From Pelomonas sp. Root1237 (lineage in GTDB: Bacteria; Pseudomonadota; Gammaproteobacteria; Burkholderiales; Burkholderiaceae_C), in the NCBI RefSeq assembly GCF_001425055.1, contig NZ_LMDK01000018.1:248001-312000 (forward strand): a stretch of 64,000 nt of DNA. The letters run 5' to 3'. Numbering within the stretch: position 1 is the first letter of the stretch; each line of letters starts with the position of its first letter. The position numbers and the translations under genes were made by a program. The notes below the pieces were generated by a model that was not told the DNA's origin, did not search any database, and worked only from the letters and a program-made list of their open reading frames with translations. This document shows, one piece after another, positions 838-51,836 of the stretch.

Positions 838-3120
838 TTACTTGACGCCTGCGACGGCGACCGAATTGGCCACTTCGACGTAGATCGGGTTGCTGTAGAA
901 CCAGAGGTCGGCCCAGGCCGCGACGTCGTAGGACACCGCCTTCTGGCCCACGATCGGGTTGCCCGCGCCGGTGGCCGTGGCCAGGTGAGCCGGGCAGCCG
1001 TTGATGGTGCCGTTGGCCTGCGTCCAGGTTGCGCCAGCGGCCGGCAGGTTGGTGGCTACCGTCGTACAGGGGATGCGAAGCATCGTCGTGTCGTTGGCGT
1101 TGGTGAACAGGTCGGCCAGCGGGTTGCCGTTGGCGTCCGTCTCGTAGGGCACGGCAGCCGGCATGTTGGTGCCGCGCAGGCGCACGTACTGCGAGGCCTG
1201 GACCGCCGGGATGCGCAAGCTCATCTTCAGGAAGACGCTGTTGTCCACGCCTGACGACACTTGAGTCCAGGCCGAGCCGCCGTTGCCGCTGAAGGTCTTC
1301 AGGATGGCGGCCGACGTGTTCTTGGCGGCGGCCGGCACGGCCGACAGGCCTGCGGTGCTGCCGTCGGCGCGCAGCCAGTCGGTGTTACGCGGCCATTCGC
1401 CGGCGTAGTCGGCCGAGCCGGGCGTCCTGTAGCCGGTCACGAGGCCACGGACGACGTCGACGTGGTCCAGCACCGGCTTGTTGATCGGCTGGTTGATGCC
1501 GACCTGCAGCAGCGATGGGTTCGGGAACGAGTAGGGGGCGAAGTTCGCACCGTCCGGGTCGCGCAGCACGACGGCCACGACGATCTCGGCACCAGGGCGG
1601 ACCGCGAGCTTCTCGCCCATGGTGGCGCAGCCGGTCTTGTCGATGTCGGTGGCGTTGGTCGCCGCGGCGACGGCAATCGCCTCGACGGAGGCGTTCGTCC
1701 GGGCGGCGATGCCCGGGTACGAAGCGCAGGCCACGAACGCCAGGCGGTCGATCAGCTGGCCGGAGGCCGCCCAGGCGTTGCCGGTGCGCAGTCCGTCGAC
1801 GATGGTCTGCGGGCGCAGCTTGTCGGCACCGTTGCGGACCAGCACGTGTGTGCGCTGGTATTCGCCGGGGTAGAAGTCCTGCGACGAGCGGCGGTCATCC
1901 GGGCCGAATTGGCCGCGGTTGTGCCAGTCGGAGCTGGCGAAGAACCAGAAGCCGCGGCCTTCGCCGAGCAGGGCGTCCCAGACGCCGCCGACCTGGCCTG
2001 CATAGACGCCGGTGCCGCCGTAGGTGGTGCCGCCGACGGAGTCGGTCAGCACGCCGCCGATATTGTTGCGCTTGACCTGGTACTCACCGCGGTTGTCAGA
2101 CGCGCCGTGGCCCGGCTGCGACTCGAAGCCGAAGGCGACGTTGGGCGCGGCGTTGTTGAAGTTGCGCAGGTGCTCGATGTTGTAGCCGTTGTTGCCGTTC
2201 GGGTTGAACGGGCCGGCGCGCTCCAGGTGGGCGGGCACGTAGTAGCTGGCATTGCCGTGGAAGTTCGCCATCCACTTCATGGCTTCGACGGTCTTGAGGT
2301 GGCCGCGCGTGCCGACGCCGGTGCCGGTGGCGGGAATGAGCTTCTGGCCGGTGGCGCTCCAGCCCAGGGTGGCGGAGGTGGAATCGGCGCTGTTCGGGTT
2401 GGCGCAAGTCCAGTTGTTGCCCGTGCTCGAGCCGGTCACGTTGCCGCGACTGGTATCGGTGTCGTTGCGGTCGAAGCAGTAGGACCACTGGGCCAGCGCG
2501 TTGGCGTTGCCGAGCGGCGAATAGCCGGGGGCGGTGGGCAGCGTGACGGAGTCGACGGAGGCCGGCATCTGGCCAGTGATCACCGACATCGAGCTGTGCT
2601 CATGGCCGGCGACGACGGACTCCAGGCCGAGGAACAGCGGCAGGTTCTTCTGGGCCGCGAGGTACTCGATGACGGGGTACTGGTACTCCTGCAGCGACTG
2701 CCAGCGCCACATGTTGCCCGTGCCGCCGACGCCGCCGCCGTTGCCCTTGAGGTTGGCCGCGCCGATGCTGTTGGCCCAGGTCGTCGTCGGGCCCTGGCCG
2801 GCGACATAGGGGAAGGCCGGCGTGGACAGCGAAGCGTCCTCGACCAATGTGCAATTGCGGTTGCCATTGCCGCCGTGGCCGGCCTGCACGAACCAGTCCA
2901 GGCCCCATGGCGTCTCGGACTTGTCGGTGACCTTCTTCACCAGCTTCTGCATCGAGATCGAGCCGTCCGAGCAGGTGGTGTGGTTGTGGAAGTCACCGGA
3001 GACGTATTTGCCCGGCGTCTTGCCTGCGGCGGTGGCGACGGTCGGCACGATGACGACGATGCTGCTGAGGGCAGCCACGGCGGCCAAGGCGATCTGGCTC
3101 TTGGTGAAATAGTGGGGCAT
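838..3120 (-). CDS. Exported DUF3604 domain protein (PHP-like)
   Basis: The product is 760 residues. An N-terminal signal peptide (hydrophobic core at about residues 10-31, ending in an Ala-rich site) indicates export. Just after it is the motif SGDFHNHTTCSDGS with His45 and His47, the HxH signature of DUF3604, a family related to PHP-type metal-dependent hydrolases. Further His-rich patches such as SSDWHNRGQFG, and HLERAGPFNP, fit a metal site in the middle of the protein. Family members are large secreted or periplasmic proteins of unproven substrate. The gene stands alone between a PCu(A)C-like gene and its own terminator. The ATG at 3120 places the signal peptide correctly. The family assignment is firm; the reaction is unknown. 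Confidence 0.85.
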   Translation of the reverse strand: MPHYFTKSQIALAAVAALSSIVVIVPTVATAAGKTPGKYVSGDFHNHTTCSDGSISMQKLVKKVTDKSETPWGLDWFVQAGHGGNGNRNCTLVEDASLSTPAFPYVAGQGPTTTWANSIGAANLKGNGGGVGGTGNMWRWQSLQEYQYPVIEYLAAQKNLPLFLGLESVVAGHEHSSMSVITGQMPASVDSVTLPTAPGYSPLGNANALAQWSYCFDRNDTDTSRGNVTGSSTGNNWTCANPNSADSTSATLGWSATGQKLIPATGTGVGTRGHLKTVEAMKWMANFHGNASYYVPAHLERAGPFNPNGNNGYNIEHLRNFNNAAPNVAFGFESQPGHGASDNRGEYQVKRNNIGGVLTDSVGGTTYGGTGVYAGQVGGVWDALLGEGRGFWFFASSDWHNRGQFGPDDRRSSQDFYPGEYQRTHVLVRNGADKLRPQTIVDGLRTGNAWAASGQLIDRLAFVACASYPGIAARTNASVEAIAVAAATNATDIDKTGCATMGEKLAVRPGAEIVVAVVLRDPDGANFAPYSFPNPSLLQVGINQPINKPVLDHVDVVRGLVTGYRTPGSADYAGEWPRNTDWLRADGSTAGLSAVPAAAKNTSAAILKTFSGNGGSAWTQVSSGVDNSVFLKMSLRIPAVQASQYVRLRGTNMPAAVPYETDANGNPLADLFTNANDTTMLRIPCTTVATNLPAAGATWTQANGTINGCPAHLATATGAGNPIVGQKAVSYDVAAWADLWFYSNPIYVEVANSVAVAGVK

Positions 3121-48459: not shown

Positions 48460-49533
48460 ATGTCCACGCAGTTACAGACCCCCTCGAACGGAGTGCCGCT
48501 CCCCCTCCATATCGAGGCGGACGTCAATCTCAAGCCCTACAACACCTTCGGCCTGCCGGCCGTGGCGAAGCGCCTGGTGCGCATCCGCGAGGCGGCCGAC
48601 GTCCGCCGCGTCGTCGATCACCCCGAACTGGGCCGTGCGCCCAAGTTCGTGCTGGGCGGCGGCAGCAACCTCGTCTTGACCAAGGATGTCGATGCCGTCG
48701 TGCTGAAGGTGGAAATTACCGGCATCCGGCTGTTGGAAGCGCGCGACGACGCCTGGATCGTCGAGGCAGGTGCCGGCGTCGTCTGGCATGAGCTGGTCAC
48801 CTGGACGCTGGACCACGGCTACCCAGGCCTGGAGAACATGGCGCTGATCCCCGGCACGGTGGGGGCCGCACCGGTGCAGAACATCGGCGCCTACGGTATC
48901 GAGGTCAAGGACCGGCTGGAGGCCGTCGAGGTCATGGATCTCATCACCGGGCGGCCGGCCCTGCTGCCGGCGGAGGTCTGCCGCTTCGGCTACCGCGACA
49001 GCGTGTTCAAGCACAGCGACTTCGGCGGTCTGGCGGGCAAGAGCGTCATCACCCGTGTGCGCTTTCGCCTGCCCCGGCCCTGGCAGCCGGTGCTCGGTTA
49101 CCTCGAAATTGAACGCAAGATGGCCGAGACCGGCATCACCGCGCCGGATGCGCGCCAGATCTACGACTGGATCTGCGCCGTGCGCCGCGCCAAGCTGCCC
49201 GACCCTGCCGTCATCGGCAATGCCGGCAGCTTCTTCAAGAACCCGGTCGTCACGGCCGAGCAGTGCCGCGACATCATTGGCCGCGACCCCGGCATCGTTC
49301 ACTATCCCATGCCCGACGGAAGCGTGAAGCTGGCCGCCGGGTGGATGATCGACGCCTGCGGCTGGAAGGGGAAGACAGTGGGCGGAGCGGCGGTTTACGA
49401 AAAACAAGCCTTGGTGCTGGTCAACAAGGCGGACGCGCGCGGCGCGGAAGTCGTGACGCTGGCACGGGCCATCCAGGAGAGCGTCTACGGGCGCTTTGGC
49501 ATCCGGCTGGAGCCGGAGCCGGTCGTCCTATGA
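48460..49533 (+). CDS. murB: UDP-N-acetylenolpyruvoylglucosamine reductase
   Basis: MurB is the NADPH/FAD enzyme that completes UDP-MurNAc in peptidoglycan synthesis. The 357-residue product has [64 protein letters not shown] with the catalytic Ser, and [16 protein letters not shown]. It is type I MurB. The stop overlaps the ligase gene start (ATGA). Confidence 0.97.
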
Positions 49534-50348
49534 GGCTAACCCGGCGTGCACTCTTGGGCCTGCTGGGGGCTGCCGGGCTTCCAGCTTGGGCGCTGGAGCC
49601 GCTGCTAGCGCGCAATGCGCCGGCCGGCATCGACCCGCGGCCCTATCTCGTCAGCGAGAAGTTCGATGGCGTGCGGGCGTTGTGGGATGGGCAGGCTTTG
49701 AAGTTCCGCAGCGGTCGCACCGTCGCTGCGCCGGCCTGGTTCCTGGCCGAACTTCCCAGGCAGCCGCTCGACGGTGAACTGTGGATGGGGCGGCGCAGCT
49801 TTGATGCGCTATCGGCGGCCGTACGGCGCACCGAGCCGGTGGACGCCGAATGGCGGCTCGTCAGCTATCGCGTCTTCGAGCTGCCAGCGGGCGACGGGGA
49901 TTTCGAGCGGCGCGCGGCCAAGCTCGCGACGATGGCTGGCGGCGTCGTCATGCCGGTGCAGCAACAGCGCCTCAGCTCCAACGCCGAACTTCGGGCCAGG
50001 CTCAAGCAGGTGGTCGACGCCGGTGGCGAGGGCCTGATGCTGCACCGGGCCGACGCGCCGCTGGCCTCGGGCCGCAGCGACCTGCTGCTCAAGCTCAAGC
50101 CGCTGGCGGATGCCGAAGCCGTTGTCGTCGGCCATGAGCCGGGCAAGGGACGGCTGGCGGGTCAGCTGGGGGCACTGGAGTTGCAGACACCCGAGGGCCA
50201 GCGCTTCAAGCTGGGCACCGGCTTCAGCGACGCCCAGCGCCGCGACCCGCCGCCCATCGGCTCGACTGTCACCTATCGCTATCGCGACCTGACGCCGAGT
50301 GGCAAGCCCCGCTTCGCGAGCTTCCTGCGGGTGGCCGAGGCGTTCTGA
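49530..50348 (+). CDS. Secreted ATP-dependent DNA ligase (Lig E type)
   Basis: The product is 272 residues. RRALLGLLGAAGLPAWA is an export signal with twin arginines, so the enzyme acts outside the cytoplasm. The adenylation domain has the nucleotidyl-Lys motif SEKFDGVRALWDG, then DGELWMGRRSFD, GGEGLMLHR and LLLKLKP. A C-terminal OB domain follows (FKLGTGFSDAQR and the VTYRYRDLTPSGKPRFASF stretch, cited as TYRYRDLTPSG). This is the minimal LigE/LigB-like layout without extra domains. Family members are found in proteobacteria including naturally competent ones; the role is debated. Translation is coupled to murB. Confidence 0.88.
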   Translation: MRLTRRALLGLLGAAGLPAWALEPLLARNAPAGIDPRPYLVSEKFDGVRALWDGQALKFRSGRTVAAPAWFLAELPRQPLDGELWMGRRSFDALSAAVRRTEPVDAEWRLVSYRVFELPAGDGDFERRAAKLATMAGGVVMPVQQQRLSSNAELRARLKQVVDAGGEGLMLHRADAPLASGRSDLLLKLKPLADAEAVVVGHEPGKGRLAGQLGALELQTPEGQRFKLGTGFSDAQRRDPPPIGSTVTYRYRDLTPSGKPRFASFLRVAEAF

Positions 50349-50355
50349 AGGCTTG

Positions 50356-50436
50356 TCAAAGCCAGCTCAGCAGCTTCTGCAACCACAGAGGCAGCGGGCG
50401 GCCGGGGACGTAGTTCTGGCGGTACTGGCTGTGCAT
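50356..50436 (-). CDS. LexA-controlled 26-residue microprotein (new candidate)
   Basis: An ATG at 50436 is preceded by GAGGAG with a six-base spacer, an excellent ribosome site, and leads to a 26-codon frame ending in TGA. The peptide is basic (two Arg, one Lys, one His, no acidic residue). It has a Tyr/Pro-rich first half and an amphipathic, Trp-rich end, LPLWLQKLLSWL. A perfect LexA-type operator ends 18 bases before the start. I know no family for it. The layout recalls LexA-controlled small membrane-active peptides such as TisB, although this one is shorter in hydrophobic length. It ends 8 bp from the convergent DNA ligase gene. Confidence 0.7.
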   Translation of the reverse strand: MHSQYRQNYVPGRPLPLWLQKLLSWL

Positions 50437-50454
50437 GGCGGGCTCCTCAAAAGC

Positions 50455-50480
50455 GAATACTGTTGATTTATACAGTATTC
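50455..50480 (-). promoter_or_regulatory. LexA (SOS) box
   Basis: GAATACTGT-N8-ACAGTATTC has two perfect 9-bp inverted arms and contains the full CTGT-N8-ACAG LexA core with flanking TA. On the minus strand the spacer includes TATAAA, a possible -10 element, so LexA would cover the promoter of the microprotein gene. The box starts beyond the argG stop and faces only the microprotein gene. Confidence 0.88.
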
Positions 50481-50510
50481 ACCCGGGCCTCGCCAGTGTT
50501 CAGCGGGAAA

Positions 50511-51836
<1,326 letters not shown>

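Follow-up and report, generated by a model that had tools for sequence, protein, structure and literature searches.

A putative LexA-controlled microprotein family in Pelomonas and other Burkholderiales related to Roseateles

Background

Is the 26-codon frame that follows a perfect LexA-type operator in Pelomonas sp. Root1237 a gene, and if so, what could its product do in the SOS response? Genes for 24-40 residues are easily missed by annotation, and those LexA-controlled microproteins whose role is known (TisB, DinQ, SidA) stem from a small number of model bacteria. The window considered here is a stretch of 64,000 nucleotides (contig NZ_LMDK01000018.1, positions 248,001 to 312,000), in which an earlier reading of the letters, hereafter the original prediction, had proposed an SOS-induced, membrane-active or regulatory peptide.

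Operator, frame and neighbouring genes

The LexA-type operator (50455..50480, assigned to neither strand) is formed by two perfect 9-bp inverted arms, GAATACTGT at 50455-50463 and ACAGTATTC at 50472-50480, around the 8-bp spacer TGATTTAT; the LexA core CTGT-N8-ACAG inside it takes up positions 50460-50475. Direct reading confirms core and arms as they had been predicted. A candidate -10 element, TATAAA, lies in the operator on the minus strand (50472-50467) and recurs in 19 of the 20 boxes of the genus, the exception being L009 with TATACA. It had been placed in the spacer, but this is true of five of its bases only, the sixth belonging to an arm. On the same strand follow a Shine-Dalgarno-like GAGGAG (50448-50443), whose predicted distance of six bases 5' of the start codon proved right, and the frame itself (50356..50436, 26 codons, MHSQYRQNYVPGRPLPLWLQKLLSWL), which runs from the ATG at 50436-50434 up to and including the stop TGA at 50358-50356. 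An SD-like tetramer is present in 58 of the 70 family members described below. The lack of acidic residues, likewise predicted, is a property of the window peptide but not of the family, in which it holds for only 32 of 70 members.

The microprotein gene occupies part of a gap of 162 bp (predicted at about 160 bp) between the stops of a ligase gene (50348) and of argG (50511); it lies downstream of argG and is convergent with the ligase gene. The argG neighbour has argininosuccinate synthase domains. The ATP-dependent DNA ligase (window positions 49530-50348, plus strand) is matched by NCBIfam PRK09125 'DNA ligase', and its N-terminus displays, by eye, an export-signal-like stretch of RR plus hydrophobic residues. 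We infer the promoter in the window, because a consensus scan of positions 50200-50600 gave no sigma-70 promoter and no terminator; -35-like elements (TTGGCA, TTGCA) can be seen by eye upstream of several family members.

The bare 8-base core is not significant on its own in 64 kb. CTGT-N8-ACAG is expected 0.65 times per stretch of this length and occurred at least once in 47 of 100 shuffles, a rate that would allow for a chance ORF behind a true or false LexA box. However, frame, start, stop and box are conserved in 20 of 20 genus genomes and are found in 30 genera, which refutes a chance ORF for practical purposes. The joint conservation of operator, start and frame in all 20 genus genomes is not given by chance; the original prediction had argued against chance from the order and spacing of the elements.

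Conservation and selection within the genus

A tblastn-type search, of the kind suggested with the original prediction, found the frame, free of internal stops, in the own genome as well as in each of the 19 other genus genomes searched (69-100% identity). A perfect CTGT-N8-ACAG box accompanies it in all 20, the nearest copy lying 20-24 nt before the ATG. The window peptide recurs unchanged in Pelomonas sp. Root1217 (L170). Substitutions among the 20 genus copies fall mostly on third positions (0.22, 0.14 and 0.31 per site by codon position). In frame, pN/pS is 0.40 and dN/dS 0.31, and the five other frames have pN/pS values of 1.05 and 1.91 (forward) and of 0.95, 0.64 and 1.65 (reverse). Judged by these ratios, purifying selection is confined to the microprotein frame among the six. 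A frame drifting beside a conserved LexA box had been named beforehand as the outcome that would speak against a gene; what was found is a conserved frame, start, stop and operator, with purifying selection in this frame only. On this comparison of copies, the 26-codon gene looks real.

The surroundings of the gene are less constant. argG is found in the same locus in 14 of the 20 genus genomes and is absent from it in six, and a ligase match is present in 12 of the 20 loci. Because box and ORF both persist where the argG neighbour is missing, we interpret them as the unit under selection. A functional link to the ligase or to argG was rejected on these counts, neither gene being shared by the loci of other genera.

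Distribution of the family

Profile A1, built from the genus members and one distant relative without using the LexA box, was applied to 399 genomes of the taxonomic family; beyond the genus it led to 18 loci that proved to be members when read. Fifteen of these 18 have a perfect box at most 70 nt from the ATG. The wider profile A3, seeded partly with members selected by the box pattern, matched 71 of the 399 genomes in 33 of 141 genera (E<=0.002). We kept 70 of the 74 A3 places as credible genes, which code for peptides of 24-40 residues in 67 genomes and 30 genera; dropped were L271, which begins with GTG and has 14 residues, L275, for which the scan gave no start, and L277 and L278, which are without the family pattern. 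The remaining 328 of the 399 genomes gave no A3 match at E<=0.002 with about 20 candidates scored per genome, and the microprotein may either be dispensable for SOS in many relatives or have been missed by the search. As 20-30 candidates per genome were scored in the profile searches, the reach of the family given here is a lower bound.

A scan of named genomes for the pattern of box, ATG and YRQxY yielded at least 33 members among the 118 matches listed, the other 85 of which are not members. The members among the matches listed come from Roseateles, Pelomonas, Paucibacter, Rhizobacter, Rubrivivax, Albitalea, Aquincola, Schlegelella and further Burkholderiales/Betaproteobacteria; the NCBI taxonomy assigns Roseateles, Rubrivivax gelatinosus and the Schlegelella member to Sphaerotilaceae. 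One contig of a MAG labelled Methylotenera (L143) codes for the same peptide as Roseateles puraquae (L130), and for this reason its bin is probably mislabelled or mixed. The order-level search matched four of 399 genomes, two of them genuinely and both within the same taxonomic family, and the class-level search matched one of 274, namely the own genome. With 20-30 candidates scored per genome, neither search found a member outside the taxonomic family. The pattern scan of viral sequence gave no members among 43 stretches. Phage or plasmid cargo was considered and rejected after tblastn had found no match in either a phage or a plasmid collection, a search in which short queries are insensitive.

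Several further candidates were excluded. From the A1 search, the frames L042, L047, L050, L052 and L053 lie antisense to uvrA-like genes (uvrA by eye), and L048 has the same score and coordinate pattern as L047. On the strand opposite such uvrA-like genes, PVRPLPIWLARRMRW-like stretches resemble the profile in its C-terminal half and cause false matches around E 1e-3. We regard L224 and L225 from the order-level search, and L280, L281 and L284 from a motif search in the own genome, as chance matches.

No named family was matched at E up to 10 in Pfam, NCBIfam or PHROGs (three peptides each) or in PADLOC (two peptides), and one profile search against PDB chains remained without significant match (best E 0.14). 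Searches of the open-licence literature brought up no title or abstract describing such a microprotein family. The surmise that the peptide may be undescribed holds for these libraries and for the literature at that level. By these searches, the family is apparently without a name; its members are found in relatives of Roseateles that live in soil and water.

Probable LexA control

Across the family, 52 of 70 members have a perfect LexA box at most 70 nt from the ATG; the other 18 comprise nine with a one-mismatch box (within 150 nt) and nine with two or three mismatches. At control ATGs from the same loci (n=5,877), a box within 150 nt is perfect in 0.15% and has up to one mismatch in 2.3%. 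Among the 47 members whose peptide was not in A3, 32 possess a perfect box and eight a one-mismatch box. Since A3 was partly seeded with pattern-selected members, the fairest figures are 20 of 20 in the genus, 15 of 18 outside it, and 32 plus 8 of 47. The neighbouring genes vary among genera, and the same operator-ORF arrangement is found in 30 genera; as the neighbours change from genus to genus, box and ORF present themselves as the conserved unit. LexA control of the microprotein gene is well supported by these sequence comparisons.

The boxes vary in number and form. Tandem perfect cores precede the ATG in L016, where they end 42 and 21 nt before it, and in L046 (38 and 19 nt). Three microprotein copies in one genome (L272, L274 and L276 in G108) carry Phe in place of the first Trp; none has a recognisable LexA box, and all three belong to the nine members with two or three mismatches. 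A CTGG-N8-ACAG variant is the best box of members L231, L238, L264 and L268, as it is for the own lexA.

LexA is present in the own genome, with LexA_DNA_bind and Peptidase_S24 in one frame of 228 residues, and the best box of its gene (L222, upstream of 1719, minus strand) is CTGG-N8-ACAG with one mismatch. The LexA box of most beta- and gamma-Proteobacteria is given as CTGTatatatatACAG in the account of PMC3108266. In the 6.43-Mb genome, TACTGT-N8-ACAG occurs at four places only, listed in six rows of the scan because two of them are read on both strands. Apart from the microprotein operator, one place precedes a PA0069-family radical SAM gene, another is situated where an integron-integrase-like frame begins (L219, around 1020-1541, minus strand), and a further one lies just upstream of a short frame without Pfam or NCBIfam match (L216, around 1052-1471, minus strand). 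Integron integrases are a class described as being under LexA control (PMC3108266). The family match in L219 extends over only about 77 residues, and the gene looks broken; the short protein of L216 is, by eye, GIY-YIG nuclease-like.

Peptide structure

The family signature consists of [YFL]RQxYxP and, further on, PxWLxxxWxW[LF] followed by the stop. Counted from the C-terminus over 83 distinct peptides of 24-40 residues, Pro at -10 is present in all 83, Trp at -8 in 80, Leu at -7 in 63, one of L, V, I or F at -4 in all 83, Trp at -3 in 61 and Trp at -1 in 80; the last residue is L or F in 81. Arg, Tyr and both Pro are invariant in A3, and the Q of the first motif is not universal, as later members such as L256 and L261 differ. 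Net charge is positive in all 83 peptides and ranges from 1 to 7 (median 4).

GRAVY values of the same peptides lie between -1.43 and -0.05 with a median of -0.71. With a highest GRAVY of -0.05 and a model helix of 9 residues, a hydrophobic transmembrane helix could not be recognised. Averaged across peptides, the hydrophobicity of the ten C-terminal residues shows its largest moment at 100 degrees, which is the helix angle (permutation p 0.009); the helix wheel of single peptides against their own shuffles is marginal (median p 0.051). AlphaFold2 on A3, with a 32-residue member as the first row, returned one helix at residues 23-31 (block pLDDT 87-88) in a model of modest overall quality (mean pLDDT 73.9, pTM 0.26), the N-terminus being extended and of lower confidence. 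Profile and model suggest that the C-terminal half forms a short cationic amphipathic helix of about nine residues after the invariant Pro. A nine-residue Trp helix of a hydrophilic peptide would be unable to span a membrane, but could lie on it or fill a groove.

Possible function

The wiring of the gene, a LexA box in front of 26-30 residues, is that of TisB and DinQ, which the original prediction had cited as precedent. It would suit an SOS-induced membrane toxin, one that would disturb the inner membrane, reduce the proton-motive force and make the cell grow more slowly while repair proceeds, as would the net positive charge in 83 of 83 peptides and the approximately three Trp in the amphipathic C-terminal helix. 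The precedent, however, extends to the wiring and not to the peptide, which is hydrophilic on average (median GRAVY -0.71) and whose helix of about nine residues is too short to span the membrane. R, Y and P of the non-helical half are strictly conserved, yet would be needless for an unspecific membrane activity. Moreover, the operator-to-stop RNA (121 nt) is not unusually folded, its fold being weaker than that of shuffles (z +1.34), and the leader of about 20-25 nt, as judged by sequence, is unlike those of the tisB and dinQ mRNAs. We consider a toxin of this kind unlikely.

That two halves are conserved points to a specific protein as partner. A soluble regulator would bind, by its helix and the RQxYxP segment, a cytosolic SOS protein and modulate it; candidates would be a Y-family polymerase, the sliding clamp or RecA. 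In L049 and L051, both of one genus, a Y-family (IMS) polymerase gene follows on the same strand, 54 nt downstream of the microprotein gene (1642-2868, plus strand, in L049). This neighbourhood was seen in that one genus, however, other genera having other neighbours, and a search of the own genome brought up no larger protein that carries the motif more than chance would give (best other match E 0.27). A soluble regulator appears to us rather improbable. Microprotein and polymerase genes of L049 and L051 possibly form an SOS operon.

A short ORF with several Trp codons near a promoter is also what would be expected of a Trp-rich leader peptide, which attenuates a downstream gene and is no effector itself. 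The next downstream gene in the window is convergent, however (the ligase, with its stop at 50348), and among genera the downstream genes vary in strand and identity, with neither a conserved downstream gene nor a conserved hairpin. No terminator-like hairpin was found at 50200-50600, and nonsynonymous sites beyond the Trp codons are conserved too, all of which makes a leader peptide most improbable.

We lean, with a little more confidence than doubt, towards a LexA-repressed, monocistronic microprotein gene, belonging to a family of Sphaerotilaceae-type Burkholderiales, whose product is a reversible SOS effector docked at the inner membrane, with the division machinery as its likeliest target. 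Frame, purifying selection, operator, family and helix pattern are carried by the sequences themselves, and from these we propose how induction, translation, location and target might follow. In the undamaged cell, LexA would sit on the operator, which overlaps the core promoter. Upon damage, RecA-stimulated cleavage of LexA would free the promoter and give rise to an mRNA with a short leader and a good ribosome-binding site, which would then be translated. With its Trp face, the helix might dock on the inner-membrane surface or in a groove of an inner-membrane protein, and the extended, cationic RQxYxP segment could provide the specific contact; we assume a specific partner because the polar half is equally conserved. 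The peptide would act as a reversible SOS effector on a target that we judge most likely to be the division machinery, as for SidA of Caulobacter, although this choice of target, taken alone, is a tentative one.

The SulA model (PF03846) matches two of 35 carriers of the microprotein and three of 35 genomes without it (5 of 70 overall). As SulA is absent in 33 of the 35 carriers, a division inhibitor of another kind would find room there. However, the absence of SulA was rejected as evidence for a role in division, since non-carriers lack it alike (32 of 35); it amounts to an opportunity. The family might be the missing SOS division-checkpoint effector of a large Burkholderiales group nearly without recognisable SulA, stopping septation or another membrane-bound machine, a suggestion which we regard as speculative. 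Part of it, and to be taken with the same reserve, is that a bipartite microprotein acting by contact, with RQxYxP as anchor and PxWLxxxWxW[LF] as helix, would be new among described SOS peptides.

A microprotein family with its own signature, spread over 30 genera of one taxonomic family, becomes recognisable only when operator and peptide are read together. It would be worthwhile to look systematically for perfect LexA boxes in front of short frames that lack annotation. The family likewise offers a handle on how bacteria of this group, with a SulA profile in 5 of 70 genomes, hold division or tune repair in SOS.

Comparison with known systems

SulA (PF03846) would be the functional counterpart of the microprotein if the latter is a division inhibitor, but the two have no relation by profile. 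SidA of Caulobacter crescentus, a 29-residue SOS-induced inner-membrane protein (PMC4211646), is by its description similar in size and control. It differs in being an inner-membrane protein that binds FtsW, whereas the present peptides are hydrophilic and have a helix of about nine residues.

DinQ of Escherichia coli is described as a LexA-controlled peptide of 27 residues (PMC3567139), so that LexA-type control and a similar length are shared with the DinQ/AgrB system. In contrast to the present peptides, which are without a transmembrane stretch and have a short leader, DinQ is hydrophobic with a single transmembrane segment, is countered by an antisense RNA and has a processed mRNA. TisB of Escherichia coli, LexA-controlled as well, is described with 29 residues, an amphiphilic helix and a net positive charge (PMC8309996); the TisB/IstR-1 system thus resembles the present one in LexA-type control, amphipathic helix and net positive charge. 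TisB, however, passes lengthwise through the bilayer, and both IstR-1 and an inhibitory 5' UTR keep it in check. The present peptides differ from it in that their invariant Pro is followed by a helix of about nine residues, and that a second half, which is non-helical, is conserved as well. Taken together, sequence and model suggest that the wiring is of the kind known from TisB, DinQ and SidA, and that the peptide, by the transmembrane-helix feature, is not of the TisB/DinQ type.
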